From the NCBI RefSeq assembly GCF_003386095.1, contig NZ_QREG01000010.1, forward strand, positions 137,269-196,160: a DNA stretch of 58,892 bases, read 5' to 3'. The notes below the pieces were generated by a model. It was not told the DNA's origin, ran no database searches, and saw nothing but the letters and a program-made list of their open reading frames with translations. This stretch comes from Marinoscillum furvescens DSM 4134 (GTDB taxonomy: Bacteria; Bacteroidota; Bacteroidia; Cytophagales; Cyclobacteriaceae). This document shows, piece after piece, positions 3,432-57,964 of this stretch; position 1 is the first letter of the stretch; each line of letters opens with the position of its first letter. The position numbers were made by a program, and so were the translations under genes.

Positions 3432-4535
3432 ATGACCAATCTAGGAAAGAAAACTCATCAAAAGGCCGCAGGGCCTACATTCATCGGCCTGTGCTTGCTG
3501 GGGCTGTGTATTGCCAGTTGTCAGGGAGAGGCCAAATCGTCACTGGCCATGGCCAGACCCAGCTATGAGGAAGACCGCACCGTGGTAGTCACGAGCCAGG
3601 TAAAAGAAGGAGACTTTTTTAAAGAATATGAAAACAATGGCGTGCTGGAAGCCCGGCACAAAGCTACGGTGGTCATGAAAGAGGCAGGGATGATTGAGGC
3701 ACTGCATGTCAGCAATGGCGACCGGGTACAAAAAGGGCAGCTACTTGCGGAAATAGCCAATGATCAGCAAAGGTATGCCCTCGAGCGTGCCACGCGCAAC
3801 TTGCAAAAGGCTCGTCTGGAGCTGGCCACACTGCTCATAGAGCAGGGGTACACATTGGCAGATTCGGCCAATGTACCTGAGCAGGTATGGCAGCGTGCAC
3901 TGATCAAGTCCGGCTGTCTGGATGCAATCAACGAACAGCAGCTAGCAGCCCTGCGTCTGGCCAACACCCGCATCACTGCACCATTTGACGGTATAGTAGC
4001 AGACCTGCAGGTACGCTTGCACAACCAGTCCGACCAGTACAAATTCTTTTGCTTGCTCATCGATGACCGCTACTTCCAGGTGGAGTTTTCCATATTGGAA
4101 GCTGAGCTGTTAGAAATGGAAAAAGGCATGGCCGTAGAAGTGCGACCATTTGCTGTGGAGGATTACATGATAGCTGGTACGCTGAGTACGATCAACCCAA
4201 AGGTAGAAGATAATGGCATGATGAAGGTAACTGCCACCGTGCCCAATACCGATGGCCGACTGGCCGAAGGAATGAACGTAAAAGTGCTGGTGCGCAAACT
4301 GGTGGGCCGTAGGACGTATGTGCCAAAAGAAGCTGTGACTCTGAGGCAGGAGCGGCATGTGGTGTTTACCCACCGCAGTGATACGGCCTATTGGAACTAC
4401 GTAAAAGTAGGGCCGACCAATTCCCGCTATACGGTCATCAAAAAAGGGGTTAGCCCGGGAGATGAAGTCGTGATAGAAGGGCACTTTAACCTGGCGCACC
4501 TTGCCACAGTGGAAGTCATAGACCAAAAACAGTAA
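3432..4535 (+). CDS. RND efflux periplasmic adaptor (membrane fusion protein), lipoprotein
   Basis: Bridges the inner-membrane pump to the outer-membrane channel. The N-terminus has a lipoprotein signal ending in LCIASC, so the mature protein is probably anchored by a lipidated Cys near residue 30. The HlyD/AcrA layout is visible: a biotinyl-lipoyl-like half (EAGMIEALHVSNGDRVQKGQLLAEI, split here as EAGMIEALHV then NGDRVQKGQLL), a short alpha-hairpin (about 115-165), the second lipoyl half (NTRITAPFDGIVADLQV), then beta-barrel and membrane-proximal domains. At 367 residues it has the usual family length. It lies between the first permease and the TolC-like gene, so it presumably serves one or both permeases. 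Confidence 0.92.
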   Translation: MTNLGKKTHQKAAGPTFIGLCLLGLCIASCQGEAKSSLAMARPSYEEDRTVVVTSQVKEGDFFKEYENNGVLEARHKATVVMKEAGMIEALHVSNGDRVQKGQLLAEIANDQQRYALERATRNLQKARLELATLLIEQGYTLADSANVPEQVWQRALIKSGCLDAINEQQLAALRLANTRITAPFDGIVADLQVRLHNQSDQYKFFCLLIDDRYFQVEFSILEAELLEMEKGMAVEVRPFAVEDYMIAGTLSTINPKVEDNGMMKVTATVPNTDGRLAEGMNVKVLVRKLVGRRTYVPKEAVTLRQERHVVFTHRSDTAYWNYVKVGPTNSRYTVIKKGVSPGDEVVIEGHFNLAHLATVEVIDQKQ

Positions 4536-4538
4536 GCC

Positions 4539-6026
4539 ATGACTTTGAAGCCAATTTGGATGACCATCCTACTGCTGGTAGTTGGCAGGTTTACGGGCTT
4601 ACAGGCTCAGCAGATACACCTTACCATGCAGGAAGCGGTGGCTATGGCTGTAGAGCAGTCGTTCGATGCTTACAGTAGCCAGTACCAGTTTCAGCTCAGC
4701 AAGTTCAATTACCTGGATACTCGAAAGCTTTTGCATCCGGAGATTCGCTTTTCCGCTACAGCGGTAAACTATACCCGTGCGATCCAGGAGCAGTGGAACT
4801 CCGATCAGCAGCAGTTTTTGCCCTATGACGTCCAGCGACTGATCAACTCGGGCAGCATCACGCTCAACCAACCGGTTTGGTTTACCGGAGGCTCGTTAAA
4901 TATATCGTCGAGCCTTAGGCGCAACCAGACCTTTGCCGAAAATGGCAATACGCTAAACTATATCTCGGCGCCTGTGGGGGTGAGCTACCGCCAAAACTTC
5001 AATCAGCCCAACTATTATAAATGGAATCGGACCATTGGCAACCTGCAGTTTGAACAGGCGCAGGGAGATTTGGCCAGAAGCCAGGAAGCCGTAAGGGTGC
5101 GGGCTGTCAGCATGTTTTTCGATGTGCTCATCGCCCAAAACCAGGTGGAGATTGCCAGGCTGAGTAAACTCAATGCCGACTCGCTGCAGTGGATGGCCGA
5201 ACAAAAAAATGCCATTTTTGCTATCTCCAGAGCCGATTACCTCAATCTGGAACTGCAGCAGTCCAATTCGGAGATTGCGTATCAAAAGGCCCGGATCCGA
5301 CTGGTCAACTTACGCAATGCGTTTACCACTTTTCTAGGCCTTTCACGCGATGTTGAGCTGGTGTGCCAGGTGCCGGATAAGGTCCCTGTTATCAGCATCA
5401 GTGCGCTGGACGCACTGGATAAAGTGCACGCCAATAACCCCGAACTGCTCCGCATCCGGCGTGCCATTCTGGAAGCAGAACGTTCGCTGGAAGCTGCACG
5501 GCGGCAGCCATACAATGTAAGCCTACAGGCCAATGTTGGTTACAATCAAAACCGAAACCAAATCGACGCAGCCTATCGCGATCTGCTCGACCAGCAAGGC
5601 GTATCGCTGAGTGTCAGCATTCCCATCTATGATGGTGGCCGGCTGTCGCGCAATGTCCAACGCGCACGAGTCAGCCAGGAGTACCAGCAAAAGTCGCTAC
5701 GTCAAACACGCCTGGAGCTCGAAAACGAAATCCTTCAGCAGGTGAACAATTTTGAGGTTTCGGCTTCACAGATCGAGAGCTATGCCAAGTCCGATACCCT
5801 GGGCCAGGTAGTCTATGAAGCCACCAGAGAGCGCTTTGTGCTGGGCAAGGCTTCTATCGTAGACATGATCAATGCAGAGGAGCGCAGGCAAGCAGCTCGG
5901 CTCAGCTACCTGAGCCAGCTGCAAAGCTTCTGGACGCAATACTATGTCATCCGTCAGCTATGCCTGTATGACTTTATCACTCAGCAAGATTTGGTAACCC
6001 TTATAAACCAGCGGTCCGATGATTAG
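4539..6026 (+). CDS. TolC-family outer-membrane efflux channel
   Basis: Outer-membrane/periplasmic duct that completes the efflux pump. It is 495 residues with a signal peptide (about 1-23, ending LQAQ). Two repeated outer-membrane efflux protein halves are visible: long heptad-rich helices rich in Gln/Ala/Arg (about 200-265 and 400-480) separated by strand segments such as VSLSVSIPIYDGGRLSRNVQRA, written here in parts as VSLSVSIPIYDGG, the typical second-half strand. The gene starts 3 bp after the adaptor and its stop overlaps the next permease by 8 bp, suggesting translational coupling. Confidence 0.9.
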   Translation: MTLKPIWMTILLLVVGRFTGLQAQQIHLTMQEAVAMAVEQSFDAYSSQYQFQLSKFNYLDTRKLLHPEIRFSATAVNYTRAIQEQWNSDQQQFLPYDVQRLINSGSITLNQPVWFTGGSLNISSSLRRNQTFAENGNTLNYISAPVGVSYRQNFNQPNYYKWNRTIGNLQFEQAQGDLARSQEAVRVRAVSMFFDVLIAQNQVEIARLSKLNADSLQWMAEQKNAIFAISRADYLNLELQQSNSEIAYQKARIRLVNLRNAFTTFLGLSRDVELVCQVPDKVPVISISALDALDKVHANNPELLRIRRAILEAERSLEAARRQPYNVSLQANVGYNQNRNQIDAAYRDLLDQQGVSLSVSIPIYDGGRLSRNVQRARVSQEYQQKSLRQTRLELENEILQQVNNFEVSASQIESYAKSDTLGQVVYEATRERFVLGKASIVDMINAEERRQAARLSYLSQLQSFWTQYYVIRQLCLYDFITQQDLVTLINQRSDD

Positions 6027-23552: not shown

Positions 23553-24251
23553 ATGATTGAAATGAAATTCAAGAATATAAAATCAATGGTGGTTGCCTTA
23601 TGTGCAACCGCCTTGATATCCTGCGAAACTACCAGCGAGACGTTCGCTGAGTTTTCGACCATACCTGAGGTGATTTACATCGGTAAAGCCGATTCTGTGA
23701 TGGTATCTCATGGATACGAAGAGTTGGAGTTGGGCATACGGTTCAATTCGGACCCCAAAATCACAGCAGGAATGGTGCTGATAGATGGTACAGATTCTTC
23801 GAAGTTTGAGATAACCCGCAAAAATGATGGCGTGGATACCGCGTATCACAAGTTTGCGATACCTGAAGGGCAATACTCGCTGGCTGTATACATGCTAGAT
23901 GATGACGGCAATAAGTCAGTGTCTAAGGAAGTGGCGGCCATCTCTTATGGCCCCAACTATCAAAGTGTACTGCTTGCCAGAAAGGTAAACTCTGTAAGCA
24001 TAGCTTCGGATTCATTGAGTGTGAAATGGGCTACAGCTGACCCTGTTTCTGGTATAGTGTCTTCTCAGATCACTTACCCGGATGCTAGTGGCAGCACTGT
24101 GACCGTAGTAGTGCCTAATGACGAAACAGAAACCAAAATAGGTGATTTTCAGGCTGGACGTACGCTCGAAGTACAGAGCTTCTACCATCCTACAGAAAGC
24201 GCTTACTATGACTTCCCTAGCGAAGTAGATGAGCACGCTATACCTGAATAG
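23553..24251 (+). CDS. DUF4998-like lipoprotein, last gene of the SusCD operon
   Basis: 232 residues, with a lipoprotein signal ending ATALISC (Cys about 24). The mature part begins with a beta-strand-rich domain (IPEVIYIGKADSVMVSHG) typical of DUF4998 proteins found beside SusCD, followed by a fibronectin-like segment (about 140-225). It is probably another surface glycan-binding or accessory lipoprotein. It lies 18 bp after the previous gene and is followed by a strong terminator, so it closes the operon. No catalytic motif is visible. Confidence 0.7.
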   Translation: MIEMKFKNIKSMVVALCATALISCETTSETFAEFSTIPEVIYIGKADSVMVSHGYEELELGIRFNSDPKITAGMVLIDGTDSSKFEITRKNDGVDTAYHKFAIPEGQYSLAVYMLDDDGNKSVSKEVAAISYGPNYQSVLLARKVNSVSIASDSLSVKWATADPVSGIVSSQITYPDASGSTVTVVVPNDETETKIGDFQAGRTLEVQSFYHPTESAYYDFPSEVDEHAIPE

Positions 24252-24274: not shown

Positions 24275-24305
24275 AAAGGGCTATCGGGAGGTAGCCCTTT
24301 TTTTG
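24275..24305 (+). terminator. Rho-independent terminator of the SusCD operon
   Basis: AAAGGGCTA (24275-24283) pairs perfectly with TAGCCCTTT (24292-24300), loop 8 nt, followed by a run of T to 24304. Confidence 0.85.
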
Positions 24306-24363
24306 TCCTATCAGCTGCCTTCTGGCGCTTTTGCCCTTTGGCATTCCAAGGCCTTGCTCCACA

Positions 24364-24615
24364 GAGCTACGTGCTCTCCGGCTAGCTACCACTCCCAATA
24401 GCACCGCTACCGGGCGGATATTGATAGCTACCAGCTATCCATGAGACCTACCAGGCCGCAGGTCACAGCTACGGCTCAGCAATCACAGCTACCGACCCAC
24501 AAGTGACAGCTACCACCTATAAACGGCAGCTACGGGCTGAAAAACGACAGCTACCACGTAAAAATCACAGCTACGGGCTGAAAAGTGGCAGCTACGGCCA
24601 AAAAACCGCAGCTAC
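24364..24615. repeat. Helically phased array of 13 CAGCTAC-like cores
   Basis: GCTAC (once CCTAC) occurs with its first base at 24366, 24385, 24406, 24427, 24447, 24468, 24488, 24509, 24529, 24550, 24570, 24591 and 24611. The intervals are 19, 21, 21, 20, 21, 20, 21, 20, 21, 20, 21 and 20 bp. The last eight cores are all CAGCTAC. The spacer right half is increasingly A-rich (runs of 4-6 A) toward the right end. The alternation of 20 and 21 gives a 41-bp higher-order unit, which is not a multiple of 3, so the array is not coding. It sits between a plus-strand terminator and the 3' end of the convergent haloperoxidase gene. Nothing in the known feature types explains it. Confidence 0.85.
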
Positions 24616-24667
24616 GGCGTAGGCGTCAGGGTGTGGGCTATCCGACAGCCTGCGGTATGCACATGGC

Positions 24668-27600
24668 TTATTGGATCAGTACTTTCACTGTATGGTGGCG
24701 GGTCTTTAGCAGGTATAGGCCAGGGCTGAGTCTGGGCAAGGCTACGCTCCATGCTCCTGCACCAGTAGGCTGCACCTGCTGTAGTCGGTAGCATTTGCCC
24801 TGCATGTCTACCAGCGTGAGGTCACTGATGGCCGCTGCTGTGCAGTTGGTGAGGGTCAGTGTTTCACCGCTTGATGCAGGGTTGGGGTATAGGCTCACCT
24901 GACCGCCAGATGTGGCGCCCAGCACAGTAGGGACAAAGTAAGATGTACCATGCTCAAACGCCTGAACACCGATTTTTTCGCCGATCAGGCGGCCGGGGAT
25001 ATCATCTACAGGCGGGTGTATACCTCCCCATATACGCGACAGGCTGCACTGGTCGGAAGCATCGCGGTAGGTAGCCCACTGCAGTACCACATTCTGGCTG
25101 GGGCCTTCTTCAAAGACAAGAAATTCATTTTTTCGTGCTACAAACTCTCCCATACCTCCGGGGAAATAAGCGTCTCCGGTGATCAGGGTGAGCATCTCTG
25201 CTGCAGCACGCGAAAAGGTAGAGTGCCCAGACACATAGCCTGCAAATGGTGGCGTCACGAAAGAGGGGCGTTGGTAGGGCCACCAGTTTTCGGCCAGGAT
25301 CCAGCCCACACCAGCCTGATCATAGCGGGTGTCTTTGATGGCAGAGTGGCCTTTCCAGCTTTTGAGTTTGATTTTTCCCACATGGGACCGGTCTTCACCC
25401 GCCAGTGGGTCGTCAGTACCTACCAGCTCTATAAAGCCCGGCACCAGCGGTATGCCACCAGCATCATAGCTGGGTAGGCTGGGGTCAGTACTTTGGCCTC
25501 TTGCTGCCATATACCTGATCGCCGATATGGGGCGCACATAGTCGTACCAGCCCTTGATGCTCCATGCGGTGATGGCGGCATCATGCATGGCTCCACCCAG
25601 CAGAAAGTAGGATTTCACATCCCACTCCAGGTTTCCCAGTTCAGGGCCCTTGCCTTGTAGTTTTTTTACAAGCGCCGGATGGTCACTTACGTAGTTGAGT
25701 AGTGTAAACCAGTGGCCTGGAGGGGTTTCAGAGTCGGGGCCATCTGCCCAAAACTCCGCCAGTACACGTGTGTAGTCGCCCCTGGGGACCAGCTGCTCTT
25801 CATAGGGTAGGTTGGTGTGTGGGTTTTTTGCGTAGCCTTTGCTCACGTCTCCACCAGCGGTATACTGGTAAAACTGATTGTATTGATCAAAAGCCGTAGG
25901 GAGGTCTTCCAGCGCTATATTGCCCATACTGCGAGGTGAGATGTCCCACAGCACCCCATCCGTAGGGTCCAGGTGTGAGCTCCATAGGGCTACCAGGGCG
26001 AAGTTCCACTGAAACAGCTCGGAGGATACAGTCTCCTGCATGGTGTCTAGCAGGGGAGGTGCTCCCGGATCAAAGTGCACCCGGTATTCACCGTCATTGC
26101 GGGTATGCACTGCCGCCTGATGGTCTGCCAGAGCAAAGCCCTGCACGGTGCCCCATTCCGGGCTTAAAAACTCCGGCGTGTTGCCAGCTACAGGGTTGCC
26201 AGCCTGGTCTATAAAGGTGCGAAGCTGCAGTGGCTGCCATCGGTTGGGGGCGCTCATGCTGGCATTGCCCGGGTTGTGTGGCACCAATGGAGCATTTGCA
26301 GGCTCATAAAAGGCATTGTCATACCCCGTACTTTCTCTGGCGCCATCCGTTTGGCCGTATTGGATGAGCTCCTGAGCAATGAAGTTTCCCAGTGCGGCAG
26401 GACCATCATCAGGGTTGGTGGCTGTATAGTTCGGGTCATAGCCGAGGTTTTGCATCAGCTGGTCCATGAGCCGATAGGTCTCATGCCTTCCCGGTGAGTG
26501 GGCAAAGCGGTGTTTGAGCAGCCGATATACCGCATAGCTCATGGTTTGGCGTAGGTTTTCCTCACTAGCTGCAGGCCTTTGGCTGGGAAAGGTACTTTGG
26601 TAGTTGCCTACCACATTGCCCAGCAGGTAGGGTTGTGCTTTTTCGGGGTGGTAGAGTGCCCAGGCGTCATACATGGCCACACTTGCGTGAAAGAGGTTGC
26701 GGGCATGCACCGTGGGTCTGGCATAGTCGCTGCGGATGGCTTCCAGCAGCACTTCATTCCATAGCCTGGCTATACTATGGCTGGTGTCACTGGTGCTGGC
26801 ATGGAGGCTGATGGCCAAATGCGACCCCTCACTGTGGCAGTTTTGGTCAGCTGCGGTTAGTTGCACAAGCCCCGATGCTCCCAGGCCCCATTTTACGCGA
26901 ATGCGGCTCGTGCTTTGTCCTTCGATGATGGTACCTCCGGTCACCGTCCAGTGGTAGTCAGTAAGCGATGCTTCGGGATAGCTATAAGATTCGGTAGCCA
27001 GGTTTGCCGGCTGAGGATTACCGCTGATCGGGTGAGAGGGCAGGTAGCTGCAGGTGTTGTTGTAGCCTGTGGCATTGGGGTCGTAGTTGCATGATTTGGG
27101 GTCTGGGCAGCCCAGCACCTTGCTAGCGCCCACATCGAGTAGCTCAGGAGCAGCACCTTCGCGGAGGAGATAGGATTGGTTGATTTCCAGGCCCGATAGT
27201 TCCTGAACGCCTCCCAGCGGCCAGGTGATTTTTAGTTGGGTGATTTGGGTAGCTGTACCCAGCCCAAAGTGTACTGGCTTTAAGTTTTGGGCCATAAAAT
27301 CCGCACCGGTAAAATAGCGGTGCTGTACGCCCTGGTCGGTAGTGAGCTCCAGCCGTGTGCCTATAGCACTACGGTTAGACTGTGAGCCCTCCAGCCAGAG
27401 CTGCAGCCAGCCTTTGTTAGCCGGGGTAGAGTCCTGCAGTAGGGTGTTTTCATAAAAATGCATGATGTCGTCACTGTTGCTGATGAGCACATCCTGGTCG
27501 CCATCATTGTCATAGTCAAACACCGCCAGGCCATTGGCATTGCCTTCCCTTTCCAGGCCCCAGGTGGTAGTAGCATTAGAAAACCTCAGGGTGTCGCTAT

Positions 27601-28681
27601 CCAGGTGGTTTTCGTACAGGTAGTTTTCTGCTGCAGATACAAAGCCATTCACTACAAAGAGGTCTTCATCCGCGTCATGGTCAAAATCAAAAAACTCCGT
27701 TCCCCAGGCCCATCCGGTTTCCCATATATCCAGCGCCTCGGCAGCATCGGTATAGGTGCCATCCCCGTTGTTTAGGTAAAACGCACTGCTGATGATGTCG
27801 CTGATGTACATGTCAAACTGCCCATCGTTGTTTGGATCACCATAGGCTATGCCCATGTCGTCATTGTCGCCAGCCACCTGATATTCAGCAGCCCTGTCTA
27901 CAAAGCCCGCTTCGCCGGTGTTGATATACAGCCGATTGACCAGCCCAAAATCATTGGCCACCATCAGGTCCATGAGGCCGTCCTCGTTGGCATCCAGAGG
28001 GTAGCTCATCCAGGAGGGATCAAAGTTGGATTGTTCGTTTGCAGGATAATACTGCGACTCGTGTAGGCCTTCCGCTCTGGTGACTTCCGTAAATGTGCCG
28101 TCCTGATTATTGCGGTAGAGCATATTACTGGCGCAGCCACCCCACTTGGAGATGTACAGGTCCAAAAAACCGTCGTTGTTGTAGTCAAACCAGGTAGCCC
28201 CTACATTCCAGCAGTTGTTGGTTTCCGGCAGGTTGCTTTGTGCAGTGATGTCAAAAAACTGAAGGTTTCCCATGTTTTGGTAGAGCTGCACATGGTATAC
28301 GCTAGTGAGCAGCAGGTCGGGCAGCCCGTCATTGTTAAAGTCACCCCAGGAGGCGCCGCCTTTCATACCCGGGTATTGCCCAAAGGGTAGCTCACCATAG
28401 TCAAAGGCGCTGTAGATGCCCGATGCCTCGGTAATGTCTGTAAAGGTGCCGTCATTGTTGTTGAGATACAGGCGGCTTTCCATGCCCTGTGCGGATTGCT
28501 CCATGTCCTGCCTCACTACTGCAAATAAGTCCAGGTCAAAGTCTCCGTCTATGTCAGCCAGAGCTATGCCATTGATGTCTTTTACCTGATCCAGCCCGGC
28601 TTGCCGCTCTATGGGTCTGAATCCCTGGCTAAACAAGGTGATGCCGTGTAGGATGAACGTAAGAGCCAGTAAATGTTTCAT
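24668..28681 (-). CDS. FG-GAP/ASPIC protein fused to a vanadium-haloperoxidase-like PAP2 domain, T9SS substrate
   Basis: Large secreted protein of 1337 residues. Order: signal peptide (about 1-19); FG-GAP/VCBS repeats with Ca-binding DxDxDxD-like loops (about 25-410, for example DIDGDFDLDLF and DYDNDGDQDVL); ASPIC/UnbV-like domain (about 430-510); a small Cys-containing and PKD-like linker (about 525-625); haloperoxidase/PAP2 domain (about 640-1250); T9SS C-terminal domain (about 1262-1337, LYPNPASSGE). All three vanadate/phosphate-site motifs are seen: K1043-x6-R1050-P, S1151-G-H1153, and S-R-x5-H1222-x3-D. It could be a haloperoxidase or an acid phosphatase; the sequence alone does not decide. 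It is a monocistronic minus-strand gene that converges on the SusCD operon. Confidence 0.88.
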   Translation of the reverse strand: MKHLLALTFILHGITLFSQGFRPIERQAGLDQVKDINGIALADIDGDFDLDLFAVVRQDMEQSAQGMESRLYLNNNDGTFTDITEASGIYSAFDYGELPFGQYPGMKGGASWGDFNNDGLPDLLLTSVYHVQLYQNMGNLQFFDITAQSNLPETNNCWNVGATWFDYNNDGFLDLYISKWGGCASNMLYRNNQDGTFTEVTRAEGLHESQYYPANEQSNFDPSWMSYPLDANEDGLMDLMVANDFGLVNRLYINTGEAGFVDRAAEYQVAGDNDDMGIAYGDPNNDGQFDMYISDIISSAFYLNNGDGTYTDAAEALDIWETGWAWGTEFFDFDHDADEDLFVVNGFVSAAENYLYENHLDSDTLRFSNATTTWGLEREGNANGLAVFDYDNDGDQDVLISNSDDIMHFYENTLLQDSTPANKGWLQLWLEGSQSNRSAIGTRLELTTDQGVQHRYFTGADFMAQNLKPVHFGLGTATQITQLKITWPLGGVQELSGLEINQSYLLREGAAPELLDVGASKVLGCPDPKSCNYDPNATGYNNTCSYLPSHPISGNPQPANLATESYSYPEASLTDYHWTVTGGTIIEGQSTSRIRVKWGLGASGLVQLTAADQNCHSEGSHLAISLHASTSDTSHSIARLWNEVLLEAIRSDYARPTVHARNLFHASVAMYDAWALYHPEKAQPYLLGNVVGNYQSTFPSQRPAASEENLRQTMSYAVYRLLKHRFAHSPGRHETYRLMDQLMQNLGYDPNYTATNPDDGPAALGNFIAQELIQYGQTDGARESTGYDNAFYEPANAPLVPHNPGNASMSAPNRWQPLQLRTFIDQAGNPVAGNTPEFLSPEWGTVQGFALADHQAAVHTRNDGEYRVHFDPGAPPLLDTMQETVSSELFQWNFALVALWSSHLDPTDGVLWDISPRSMGNIALEDLPTAFDQYNQFYQYTAGGDVSKGYAKNPHTNLPYEEQLVPRGDYTRVLAEFWADGPDSETPPGHWFTLLNYVSDHPALVKKLQGKGPELGNLEWDVKSYFLLGGAMHDAAITAWSIKGWYDYVRPISAIRYMAARGQSTDPSLPSYDAGGIPLVPGFIELVGTDDPLAGEDRSHVGKIKLKSWKGHSAIKDTRYDQAGVGWILAENWWPYQRPSFVTPPFAGYVSGHSTFSRAAAEMLTLITGDAYFPGGMGEFVARKNEFLVFEEGPSQNVVLQWATYRDASDQCSLSRIWGGIHPPVDDIPGRLIGEKIGVQAFEHGTSYFVPTVLGATSGGQVSLYPNPASSGETLTLTNCTAAAISDLTLVDMQGKCYRLQQVQPTGAGAWSVALPRLSPGLYLLKTRHHTVKVLIQ

Positions 28682-28916: not shown

Positions 28917-31900
28917 TTAGTGCTTCACCAAGCGAATAGCTGCAAGATTTTCTATGTTGATGAAGTACACGCCAGCTTCCAGATCCGTCACATCGATTTG
29001 CTGGTTGATCACCGGCTTGGTGATTTCCAGTCCACCGAGGTTGATGATACGCACTTCGTTTACGTTTTGTACGCCAGTCAGCGTGACGATACCCACCGTA
29101 GGGTTAGGGTATACGGCCAGTTCCACATGAGGAGTGCTTAGTGGCTCAAGTGTGAAGTTTACAGCGTAGGTCTGTGTAGTGCTTCCATCCTGAGCAGTGA
29201 CTACTATAGTCGTAGCTCCCGGCAGGGAAGTAGCTGCAGTGATTTCTACAGTAGCATTGGCGTCAGTAGCTGTAGCAGCCACAGTAGGTACAGTAGTGGT
29301 GCCAGTAGCCAGTTCCAGCTCATAAGAGAGCGTGGCAGCATCAAATCCCGTGATGGTGGTACCATCCACAGTAAGGTCAGCCAGCGTAGCGTCCGTTGCA
29401 GGAGCTTCTACCTTGAAGTCTACCGTATACGTGCTCGCAGTACTTCCATCCTGAGCAGTCACCACCACTGTAGTAGCGCCCGGTAGGGAGGTAGCAGCAG
29501 TGATTTCTACAGTAGCGTTCGCGTCGTTGGCAGTAGCTGCTACCGTAGGTACCACAGTAGTGCCATAAGCCAGCGTCACTTCATAGGAGAGCGTAGCAGC
29601 ATCAAATCCCGCCACAGCTTCACCGTCTACAGTAAGGCTTGCTAGTGTAGCATCAGTAGAAGGATCTGCAATTTTAAAGTTTACGGTATACGTCTGTGTG
29701 CTACCATCTTGTGCGGTCACTACTACAGTAGTAGATCCCGGTAGTTCTGTAGCTGCGTTTACTTCTATGGATGCCTTTACATGATTCGCCGCTGCTGTAA
29801 TGGTAGGTACTACTGTGGTACCATAAGCAAGGGTAGTATCATAAGTCAAGGTAGCTGCCGCAAATCCCGGGTAAGCGTTACCGTCTATACTCAAACTAGC
29901 TAGTGTAGCATCGTCTGACGCTTTTTCAGCCACTTTGAAATTCACAGAATACGTTTTTTTGGTTTGGCCGTCTTCTGCCGTAACCTCCACAGTGGTGGTG
30001 CCTGGCAATGACTGAGCCTCAGTTACTACCACAGTAGCACCCTCGTGAGCCGCATTTGCAGCTATGGTAGGTACTGTAGTAGTGCCAAATGCCAATGTGG
30101 TGTCATACTCCAATACCGCTGCATCAAATCCCGCATAAGCTGCCCCATCAATGGTCATAGAGGCCAAGGTAGCATCATCAGAAGGAGCTGCCACAGTAAA
30201 GTTTACCGAGTAGGTGTTTGAAGTCGCTGCGCCTAAATCGTATCCGGATACTACAACCGTAGCTGTACCAGGAAGTTCTGTTGCCTGGTTGATTTCTACT
30301 GTAGATTCAGATGCCAGGGCAGTGCCCGCCACTGTTGGAATTGTAGTGGTTCCAAATGGTAGAACCAAATCGTAGTTCACTACCGTAGAATCAAACCCTT
30401 CGACGGTTGTTCCGTCTACTGTCAAGTCCGAAAGTGTATTCGGTGTGTAGTCATCACGGTCGTCATTGCCATCGTCTCGGGTAACAGCTGCAAGCTGAAT
30501 GTCTTCTTCAGTGGTAAACGTCCCGATCCAATCCAGGTGTATGCCGGTCCATGCCTCTGCAGCTACTAGTTTAAATTCTAGTCGATTACTCGCAATATCA
30601 TATGCGGAAATTTCGTCTCCATTTCCTACACCTTCAGTAGCTTGAGCCTTCCAGGTAGCCCATGGCTCGGCAGCATCTGTATCTACTATTTTCCAGTACA
30701 TTACGCGGTTGCCCTTTTCGGTAATGAACGTGTGTATGATAAACTCATCGGTTTTTCCGGTTTTCATATCCGTACTTGCTCCATTGCCAGCACCAGCTGC
30801 ATTTCCAGGAGCTGCAAATTCCATGTAAAACTGAATGTCATGGCCACCGCCAGCAGTATCTATGTCAAATGTGGTAGGAAAGTCTCCAGCAAACTTTACC
30901 GCAAAGTAATTGTCGGTATAAGGGTTGATTACGAATGACTCGGTAGAACCATCCTCAAATCCATACTCAAAATCATGTCTTGTATCCTCTGCTCCAGTCC
31001 AGTTGAAATGGCCATTTTCATAGGTTCCTTTACCTCTTTCGATTCTCGCCAGGTCTCCTTCGCCTGTTGTAAAGGAATCGAAAAATTGAGGAGATTTTTC
31101 ATTGACAGAAAAGTTAACGAAATAGGTAAGCGTTATCGCCTGATTAGGTGATGTTACCACTACTTCGGCAGTTCCAGGTAGACTACCTGATTGAGTGATG
31201 TTAATGGTTGCACTGGCATTTGAAGCTACCGCTGCCACTGTGGGGGGAGTAGAAGTACCTTCAGGTAGACGCACGTCATAACTATACTTATTCTCATTGA
31301 AATCTGGGACCGATACCCCATCATAGGTTAGCTCAGATAGTCTGGCATTTGAGTCCAAATCTTCATCTGGATCATTTTCACCGTCATCTTTTCCAATGGC
31401 CATCGCTTCTATTTCAGCTACCGATGAAAAAGTGCCCACCCAGTCCAGGTTCAATCCAAATGGTTCGTTTCCTATGAATTTAAGCTCAATGCGGTGTGCA
31501 TATAAATCAACGGCTGTCCCATTTTGTGCCAAAGAGTCCCATTCGTTCCATACTTCATTTCCACCATCAGTGATCTTAAAATAGATGACTTCATTCCCTG
31601 CATCAGTTTTGAATTTGCTTAGCTTGAACGTATTGCTAAATGAAACCTCAGTGATTGTACTATTGCCACCATATTCAGAAGGTGAGGCTGAAATGTTGTT
31701 AAAATAAAATTGAAGGGCATGTTGTTCGCCCTCAGCTGTATCTAGATCGATATTAGGTGAAAAGGCCCCGAAAGCTTTTACTGCAAAGTAAACATCTGTG
31801 CTAGCATTGAGCATAAAGCTGGAGTCACCGGCAGCATCAGAGAAGCCATATTCGTAATCATGTCGCACTGCTTCTGTGGTGTATAACAAATGCCCATTTG

Positions 31901-32060
31901 TAAATTCGGGGGTTTTTCCCGCAATTTTAGAAGCAGCATTATGTATGCTATCGGTAAAATTGACGAAGAAGTTCCCCGTGATTTGGGACCATCCAGCGAA
32001 GCTTACACAAAGAAGTAATGTAAGCATCAACATTTTCTTGTTTAAGTAAGAGTGTCTCAT
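28917..32060 (-). CDS. Modular T9SS surface protein with tandem cadherin-like beta-sandwich modules
   Basis: 1047 residues, signal peptide (about 1-25). It contains two copies of an about 200-residue jelly-roll-like domain (about 27-225 and 320-530), each with FAVK, a WVGTF or WIGTF segment and an acidic DDGxxDxD tail. It also carries six about 85-residue beta modules: one after the first domain and five in tandem (about 540-970). Each module follows the pattern ATLASLTVDG, GFDAATLSYE, TTVVPTVAA, LPGATTVVVTAQDGS. The C-terminus (about 975-1047, LAVYPNPTVGIVTLTG) is a T9SS sorting domain. No enzyme motif is visible; adhesion or glycan binding is plausible. It shares its large domain with the protein at 32449-35550, so the two are paralogous neighbours. 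Confidence 0.82.
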   Translation of the reverse strand: MRHSYLNKKMLMLTLLLCVSFAGWSQITGNFFVNFTDSIHNAASKIAGKTPEFTNGHLLYTTEAVRHDYEYGFSDAAGDSSFMLNASTDVYFAVKAFGAFSPNIDLDTAEGEQHALQFYFNNISASPSEYGGNSTITEVSFSNTFKLSKFKTDAGNEVIYFKITDGGNEVWNEWDSLAQNGTAVDLYAHRIELKFIGNEPFGLNLDWVGTFSSVAEIEAMAIGKDDGENDPDEDLDSNARLSELTYDGVSVPDFNENKYSYDVRLPEGTSTPPTVAAVASNASATINITQSGSLPGTAEVVVTSPNQAITLTYFVNFSVNEKSPQFFDSFTTGEGDLARIERGKGTYENGHFNWTGAEDTRHDFEYGFEDGSTESFVINPYTDNYFAVKFAGDFPTTFDIDTAGGGHDIQFYMEFAAPGNAAGAGNGASTDMKTGKTDEFIIHTFITEKGNRVMYWKIVDTDAAEPWATWKAQATEGVGNGDEISAYDIASNRLEFKLVAAEAWTGIHLDWIGTFTTEEDIQLAAVTRDDGNDDRDDYTPNTLSDLTVDGTTVEGFDSTVVNYDLVLPFGTTTIPTVAGTALASESTVEINQATELPGTATVVVSGYDLGAATSNTYSVNFTVAAPSDDATLASMTIDGAAYAGFDAAVLEYDTTLAFGTTTVPTIAANAAHEGATVVVTEAQSLPGTTTVEVTAEDGQTKKTYSVNFKVAEKASDDATLASLSIDGNAYPGFAAATLTYDTTLAYGTTVVPTITAAANHVKASIEVNAATELPGSTTVVVTAQDGSTQTYTVNFKIADPSTDATLASLTVDGEAVAGFDAATLSYEVTLAYGTTVVPTVAATANDANATVEITAATSLPGATTVVVTAQDGSTASTYTVDFKVEAPATDATLADLTVDGTTITGFDAATLSYELELATGTTTVPTVAATATDANATVEITAATSLPGATTIVVTAQDGSTTQTYAVNFTLEPLSTPHVELAVYPNPTVGIVTLTGVQNVNEVRIINLGGLEITKPVINQQIDVTDLEAGVYFINIENLAAIRLVKH

Positions 32061-51083: not shown

Positions 51084-51635
51084 TGAGTTGGTGGGTTCAG
51101 CCAGCCTACAGCGTGACAGTCCCGCCTGCGGCGAGGTAAACCCACCTGCGGCAAGGTAAACCCGCCTACAGCGTGGCAGGCCCCCGGTTTTGTCATGTTG
51201 AGTTGGCGGGCGGCTAGTCGTGGACGGCTAGTCGCGGACGGCTGGTCGCGGACGGCCAGTCTCGAAACATTAGGCAAAACCATTTGGGATGTGGTATGAT
51301 GAGTCGGTTCTATCTTTCGACCATGCCTACGGCAGGCAGGCTCAAGATGACCCGACTCAGCGTGACCACCAGTTCCTGGCGACTCGACCATGTCTACGGC
51401 AGGCCCGTTGGTTTTGTCATAGTTAGCTTGGGGGACGCCCAGTCGCGGACGGCCAGTCTCGAACTATCAGACAAAACATTTTGCACTATTGAGTTGGGGG
51501 CTTACCCGTCGAGTCTTATCCTTTTGTGAGGTTTTGACTTGCAGTCGAGTCTTATCCTTCGACCATGCCTTCGGCAGGCAGGCAGGCTCAGGGTGCCTCC
51601 CCAGCTCAAGATGACTCGACCATGCCAACGGCAGG
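51084..51635. repeat. Palindromic repeat cluster 1 (no nuclease)
   Basis: No gene. It contains GCCTGCGGC/GCCTACGGC-type units and two A elements bounded by GGTTTTGTC and GNCAAAAC (51186-51281 and 51410-51477), and a degenerate B element ending in GTGACCACCAGTTC (51362-51375). A 27-bp segment at 51362-51388 differs from one at 57938-57964 in cluster 2 by a single base. Open frames in this stretch are made of repeats and I do not call them. Confidence 0.75.
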
Positions 51636-57532: not shown

Positions 57533-57544
57533 GGGAGGTGGTGG

Positions 57545-57964
57545 GTTTTGTTATGGTGAGTTCGAAAGTTTTGTCATGGTGAAATGGCGGTTTTGTCATA
57601 GTGAGCCCGTCGGTTTTGTCATGGTGAGCCCGTCGAAGCATTAGACAAAACCTTGTGCAGCATCGAACTGGCGGCCTTACCCTTCGACAGGCTCCATGCC
57701 TGCGGCAGGTAAACAAGGTGACCACCAGTTCGAGGTGACCCGACCATGCCTCCGCAGGCCCGCCTCCGGCGTGGTGAGCCCGTTGGTTTTGTCATGGTGA
57801 GTTGGCGGTTTTGTCATAGTGAGCCCGTCGGTTTTGTCATGGTGAGCCTGCCTCTGTCGGCAGACAGGCCCGTCGAAGCATTAGACAAAACCATGTGCAG
57901 CATCGAACTGGCGGTCTGACCCTTCGACGGGCTCAGGGTGACCACCAGTTCCAGGCGACTCGAC
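57545..57964. repeat. Palindromic repeat cluster 2 (downstream of the GIY-YIG gene)
   Basis: Seven copies of TTTTGTYATRGTGA. Two A elements run from GGTTTTGTC to GACAAAACC (57612-57652 and 57830-57892). Each is followed by a B element bounded by GAACTGGCGG and ACCACCAGTTC (57665-57731 and 57905-57951), with an inner CCCTTCGAC(A/G)GGCTC core. No gene is present; open frames here are built from the repeats. Confidence 0.85.

Follow-up and report, generated by a model that had tools for sequence, protein, structure and literature searches.

The phased repeat array described here, which lies between two convergent genes of Marinoscillum furvescens DSM 4134, is a gene-less array of the PQLLE system. 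We think it fairly probable that it is an orphan member of a two-part chromosomal system of the Bacteroidota, in which a protein of the PQLLE superfamily is paired with helically phased arrays of its own, putatively bound, motif. The window (the whole stretch of 58,892 nucleotides that was analyzed, G000:C10:137269-196160) comes from a genome of 5.96 Mb in 62 contigs. An earlier note on this DNA did not include the link to a gene family. The evidence in hand consists of the arrays and their phasing, the conservation of the motif between arrays and genera, the gene linkage, the co-variation with the protein, and the two-fold build of the protein; from it we infer direct binding, side-by-side assembly, regulation, and bridging or marking.

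Re-reading of the window confirmed the array as first observed. All 13 [GC]CTAC cores were recovered in their order, with starts at 24366, 24385, 24406, 24427, 24447 (the single CCTAC variant), 24468, 24488, 24509, 24529, 24550, 24570, 24591, and 24611, and the intervals of 19, 21, 21, 20, 21, 20, 21, 20, 21, 20, 21, and 20 bp are those given before. Each unit is made up of CAGCTAC and a spacer of 13 to 14 bp. Chains of [GC]CTAC at 19 to 21 bp reach 13 members at the array, 1 in either remaining part of the + strand, and 3 on the - strand, and the longest chain in 2,000 dinucleotide shuffles of 24341-24640 was 0, 1, or 2. A 250-bp scan of the autocorrelation at lags 15 to 65 gave z>5 only in the segments starting at 24351, 24401, and 24451, with a maximum at lag 41 (z=10.5). 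The flanking genes do converge on the array (Table 1), and the ORFs preceding the left one are, we assume, TonB/SusD-like. The earlier argument against coding holds for arrays of this kind, since none of the periods 20.5, 41, and 43 bp is a multiple of three. Rfam gave no match anywhere in the window at gathering thresholds.

Table 1. Coordinates of the window array and its surroundings
Feature	Coordinates	Strand	Description
Left flanking ORF	23553..24251	+	232 aa; thought to lie outside the array system
Hairpin and T-run, terminator-like	24277..24306	+	between left gene and array; read by eye from the sequence
Whole phased array	24361..24615	+	13 units, each 19-21 bp long; unit consensus approximately TSACAGCTACCASSYAAAAA(G)
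Decayed block	24361..24465	+	five 5'-most units with imperfect cores (one CCTAC); phase largely retained
Well-kept block	24466..24615	+	3'-most units; eight perfect CAGCTAC cores in 20/21 alternation; spacers mostly A-rich
Right flanking ORF	24668..28681	-	1337 aa; thought to lie outside the array system

The earlier note had made much depend on whether similar arrays occur elsewhere in the genome. A two-core pattern search uncovered two more with the window core, at 316.1 kb of contig C3 and 32.8 kb of contig C35. A sequence model, R1, built from these three arrays finds them and nothing else in the genome with E below 0.2; it matches the well-kept block at 37.9 to 60.2 bits, and both the window and C35 arrays at E of about 1e-15, values to be read with the knowledge that R1 was built from them, the core having first been found by an independent pattern. 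The window array shares its core and phase with the C35 array; the latter immediately precedes a PQLLE gene, a same-strand ORF of 218 aa that starts 45 bp after the last core. Alternating 20/21 arrays of the CAGCTAC unit were also found by a scan of public genomes for three phased cores, two in Ekhidna lutea and one in Reichenbachiella agariperforans, and one array in each species has its last core 42 to 43 bp before a homologous 216-aa ORF. Across three genera, the last core of one array is thus 42 to 45 bp from the start codon of the homologous gene.

Arrays matching R1 are present in 3 of the 196 genomes of the taxonomic family, namely this one (three arrays), G188 (three), and G198 (one), in a scan whose stricter filters lose weak matches. 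PQLLE matches are more widespread, occurring in 28 of the 196, including all three with the window core (100, 61, and 54% identity); the other 25 do not have the window core, and our preferred reading accounts for them by other cores. The three-core pattern scan returned at least 113 stretches from the public genome collection and a viral scan returned 103, all of which were tested for mixed intervals of 19 to 22 bp. The PQLLE HMM matched ORFs of stretches L066, L120, and L140, and one in L074 weakly (16 bits). Fifteen stretches labeled Bacteroidota were judged by eye to be, for the most part, either 7-bp tandem repeats or coding repeats. In the Dehalococcoidia sequence OX638353.1, four places (L053, L056, L109, and L122) hold a dispersed repeat in which CAGCTAC occurs three times, spaced by 20 and 21 bp; with three cores each, these seem unrelated.

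The linked proteins belong to NCBIfam family NF052641, the “PQLLE family,” scoring 263.8 (C35), 253.0 (Ekhidna), and 244.8 bits (Reichenbachiella) against a curated cut-off of 80. The family match as returned gives no function and does not mention arrays, and a Pfam search of the three proteins gave no family above cut-off and one below-cut-off match, to HTH_28 (E=0.14). The system is patchy, since at E≤0.001 NF052641 has matches in 15 of the 395 phylum genomes (six pass the cut-off) and in no genome of a control set of 14. With the Ekhidna protein as the query, 72,556 plasmid and 50,697 phage records and an IMG/VR scan contained no relatives.

Linkage was tested at 58 PQLLE loci by upstream periodicity irrespective of sequence. 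Between -430 and -30, the combined z is 22.6 at lag 42 for 47 distant paralogs, which have more peaks at lags 84, 21, and 126. For 10 close homologs, it reaches 20.1 and 15.1 at lags 21 and 42, respectively; the maximum for 53 far-upstream controls is 5.2, at lag 78. The periodic signal peaks 180 to 360 bp upstream of the start codon and is almost gone beyond about 600 bp and within the gene. Individually, 39 of 56 loci have upstream arrays phased at 41 to 43 bp at p≤0.005, the smallest value possible with the 200 shuffles used, and 45 at p<0.05, while 11 have no significant array (L269 and L285, with broken or very short ORFs, were omitted). The main period is 42 bp in 27 of 38 loci, 41 bp in 9, and 43 bp in 2, all close to whole turns, and a 21-bp sub-period is common. 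When the 80 nearest ORFs of the 58 loci, which include downstream ORFs for part of the loci, were compared with each other, the sole recurrence was one near-identical pair of loci. Upstream of one superfamily gene (L368), three unlike phased arrays seem by eye to follow each other from about 100 to 790 bp, as if the motif had been replaced over time.

A second subfamily lies under the NF052641 cut-off. The PQLLE HMM weakly matches own-genome proteins on contigs C19, C4, and C20 and an Aquimarina protein (L140) adjoining a 21-bp array, and the four score 29.3 to 38.7 bits with NF052641; a profile of them has relatives in 13 of the 395 phylum genomes. Loci were chosen by protein profile and not by arrays, with the seeds excluded, and 26 of 27 were testable (L430 has no upstream DNA). 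Arrays lie upstream of 21 of the 26 at p≤0.005 and of 24 at p<0.05, leaving two without a significant array; with three genes viewed earlier set aside, the counts are 18 and 21 of 23. At lags 21, 42, and 63, the combined z is 35.4, 33.7, and 27.0, respectively. The core of the C4 gene recurs in seven own-genome arrays, with one weak single match at C20, and the C19 core matches strongly at its own gene only, with one weak match at C4 (E=0.003). In five C4-core arrays (L359, L406, L407, L408, and L411), the palindromic unit GCCCGCCTGCCGGCGAGGCAG or close variants replaces some units, in phase in L359. The 21-bp array of the Aquimarina locus, on the - strand, stands directly before the superfamily gene, and one frame is open from the array into the gene.

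Both halves of the PQLLE protein, each of about 105 residues, are homologous to one another (hhalign probability 99.1, E=1.4e-18 over 104 columns), and an AlphaFold model from two sequences is all-alpha, with pLDDT 84.7 and pTM 0.62. The Aquimarina relative has a similar helix order in a single-sequence prediction of low confidence (61.5). Foldseek found no PDB chain or viral model at E≤0.001. Net charge is negative in 16 of 54 PQLLE proteins, and the C19, C4, and C20 relatives have a pI of 4.8 to 4.9; such acidity is unusual for a DNA binder and counts against our preferred reading.

The note had argued that the phased sites are kept by selection and are not recent duplicates, and the spacers bear this out. 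Among 56 units chosen by exact heptamer from seven CAGCTACC arrays and compared at 13 non-core positions, 206 pairs within arrays have an identity of 0.490, 431 pairs from different arrays of one genome 0.495, and 903 pairs from different genomes 0.472, so that spacers are equally alike at all three levels. Unit identity in the seven own-genome arrays with the C4 core is 0.657 within and 0.640 between arrays. The criteria used to pick units (an exact heptamer, a core chain, or 11 or more of 21 consensus matches) inflate core conservation but do not affect the within/between comparison in the same way. The best register between any two arrays gives 0.65, where all registers together have a mean of 0.46 (sd 0.07), and the order of units is therefore not clearly copied. 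That the arrays are neutral minisatellites made by replication slippage appears extremely improbable. Slippage would suit two observations, a pair of identical 20-bp units at C35 and the high uniformity of array L279, but units from different genera resemble each other as much as units of a single array do, the arrays are tied to one protein superfamily, and the 20/21 alternation keeps phase.

Array similarity rises with protein identity over 38 loci (Mantel r=0.474, reached in 0 of 2,000 permutations), these being the 39 significant loci less L270, which is absent from the protein alignment. Profile similarity is 0.42 for pairs above 60% protein identity and 0.21 to 0.23 for paralogs below 40%, about the value for permuted columns (0.205, sd 0.047); profiles were used since an exact-6-mer test for “private” cores was too insensitive. 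Shared ancestry of the gene and its array accounts for part of the Mantel result. One congener, with a 71% identical protein, has the altered core GACATCTCCC, whereas two other genera, at 54 to 61%, retain CAGCTACC; the congener protein differs at only eight positions where the three CAGCTACC proteins agree. It is very unlikely that some other DNA-binding protein occupies the arrays and that the PQLLE gene is merely one of its targets: the PQLLE protein has no recognized DNA-binding domain, which favors this view, but paralog-specific cores follow PQLLE divergence, and no other gene recurs beside the arrays among the 80 nearest ORFs.

Gene-less arrays are a regular component of the system, the window array being one of them, because own-genome protein searches gave, among the matches listed, no superfamily match near the C3 array, the window array, or six further arrays with the C4 core. 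An HMM scan of the ORFs at L406-L414 gave one 16-bit match only, to an unrelated-looking ORF that we take to be threonine-synthase-like. A link to convergent gaps, which the note had raised among other options, finds no support as a general rule; eight other gene-less arrays (L406-L413) lie in six co-directional gaps, one divergent gap, and one position at a contig end. Eight of 14 own-genome arrays (C2, C3, C5, C14, C17, C19, C32, and C35) are less than 10 kb from a contig end, and the repeats perhaps break the assembly. Near a gene-less CAGCTACC array of Ekhidna lutea (L413), two ORFs at 3856-5115 presumably encode Y1 REP-associated transposases.

At C3, the space between gcvP and a lipoprotein ORF measures about 410 bp and is taken up by the array. 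Among five congeners, two share the gene pair, with gaps of some 10-20 and 50-60 bp, and two have other DNA behind gcvP; from this comparison the array appears to have been gained at that site, or lost twice. For the window gap, congeners offer no clean empty site, matches to the right-hand gene being 58 to 67% identical and without shared surroundings in the DNA viewed. Such a gain could be expected if the PQLLE gene and its array formed a selfish or mobile cassette and orphan arrays were remnants of gene loss or partial insertion, as could the patchy distribution, the presence of up to at least 15 matches per genome, and the lack of recurring neighbors. Broken gene copies also exist, at G000:C1:342455-342775 and at L285, the latter still with a clear phased array with a CAGATCA-like core. 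We nevertheless regard a cassette as unlikely: among the matches listed, none to PQLLE lies near own-genome orphan arrays, the single weak HMM match at L406-L414 and the plasmid, phage, and IMG/VR collections speak against it, and in orphan arrays also the core is retained while spacers have diverged, with no pair of arrays showing clearly copied unit order.

Folding calculations bear on another possibility, that the arrays work as transcribed RNA, either as structures in the leader of the PQLLE mRNA or as a separate RNA, bound by the protein or by another factor. The - strand of the window array folds at z=-6.71, with 0 of 200 shuffles as good (the + strand has z=-1.66), and does so because GUAGCUGY can pair with itself by way of G-U pairing. 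The 65 arrays have a mean z of about -1.5 on each strand, compared to -0.62 and -0.46 in 54 controls, but only 10 (sense) and 12 (antisense) of the 65 have z<-3, with 1 and 2 of the 54 controls; the signal across arrays in general is weak. The 20/21 alternation, as if whole DNA turns were being kept, argues against RNA, as do the terminator-like hairpins that precede the window and C3 arrays in their convergent gaps and the orientation of the L406 array, which is antisense to both neighbors. An RNA role is quite improbable on these grounds, and weaker than the reading as DNA sites.

The earlier interpretation of the window array as an iteron-like or partition-type platform is partly supported: the phased two-turn repeats make it the best analogy, but neither an adjacent Rep initiator gene nor a motor gene emerged from the neighboring ORFs compared. 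In the sections available of one account, plasmid iterons (RK2, P1, and R6K) are direct repeats of 17 to 22 bp, about two turns, that are bound cooperatively, with cooperativity abolished by a half-turn shift, and an origin has two to seven of them, read by winged-helix Rep proteins (PMC4980987). PQLLE arrays share the two-turn repeats in helical phase but, compared with what those sections describe, are chromosomal, contain about 5 to 19 units, number several per genome, and go with a protein that is all-alpha, has a two-fold build, and does not match Rep. Pfam gave no family above cut-off for the linked protein, and no neighbor recurs among the neighbors compared with each other. As described in the part seen of PMC5016525, plasmid centromeres of types Ib, II, and III partition systems (omega/ParG, ParR-parC, and TubR-tubC) place the repeat site upstream of the operon, and the centromere-binding protein is also a repressor (type Ib and TubR) and can form helical assemblies on DNA; PQLLE arrays, too, lie upstream of a gene, whose product would be the binding protein. 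Unlike partition systems, PQLLE loci have no recurring neighbor or motor gene (ParA, ParM, or TubZ) among the 80 nearest ORFs of the 58 loci, with downstream ORFs for part of them; they also occur as several paralogs in one genome, with scattered arrays that have no gene beside them. For the PQLLE protein, Pfam gave neither an RHH nor an HTH family above cut-off.

TAACTGA direct repeats, reported from Beggiatoaceae, Cyanobacteria, and five Bacteroidetes (MacGregor 2015, PMC4679880), are likewise intergenic repeated heptamers, often upstream of genes. In the portion of that paper on which we draw, the heptamer is invariant and, in the main organism, usually sits no more than several nucleotides from a start codon; a translational role is proposed and no cognate gene family described. 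The arrays here differ in unit (CAGCTAC with spacers of 13 to 14 bp in the window array), in spacing, and in gene linkage. We could assign neither the arrays nor the protein family to a known kind, and the system is apparently new to the literature; the literature searched, which covered few subscription papers and no bioRxiv preprints, contained no account of PQLLE/NF052641 arrays or like phased repeats.

In the reading that we prefer, in which the PQLLE protein binds phased arrays of its own motif, one array lies directly upstream of the PQLLE gene and others in unrelated intergenic gaps, the arrays beyond the gene probably being binding sites for the same protein. Each helical half of about 105 residues would read one 21-bp unit of two turns and one protein would cover about 42 bp, or four turns, which is the simplest reading of the 41- to 43-bp period, the 21-bp sub-period, and the two homologous halves; in CAGCTACC arrays both half-sites would share one core. 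Copies of the protein would stack side by side along one face of the helix, controlling expression of their own gene at the linked array and bridging or marking chromosomal sites at the orphan arrays. The chances seem about even that we are dealing with a patchy, phylum-wide class of nucleoprotein structures, in which duplicated all-helical proteins without a known DNA-binding fold each recognize a 21-bp motif of their own, repeated about 5 to 19 times per array and read along one face of B-DNA. Members would co-evolve with their linked arrays and, in some cases, with gene-less arrays in trans, giving several separate “addresses” per genome for organizing or marking the chromosome.

A family without known function thereby gains a concrete DNA partner and a testable mechanism. 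If true, the reading would bring a fold new to sequence-specific DNA recognition, the dozens of natural protein-motif pairs could serve to work out a recognition code, and the 41-, 42-, and 43-bp arrays beside different paralogs would be natural variants of helical phasing. Orphan arrays that anchor or mark sites would raise a new question in Bacteroidota chromosome organization; if binding amounts to ordinary autoregulation alone, the system would stand closer to known kinds.

The window contains other repeats as well. A different intergenic repeat of period 23, GGTTTTGTCATGGTGAGCCCGTC, occupies 57544-57848, and short arrays of period 20 (CCCGCCTGCGGCAAGGTAAA, 2.3 copies) and period 14 (GCGGACGGCTAGTC, four copies) lie at 51121-51261. 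A 261-bp tandem repeat is found at 29178-29744, within the 1047-aa ORF at 28917-32060 on the - strand.
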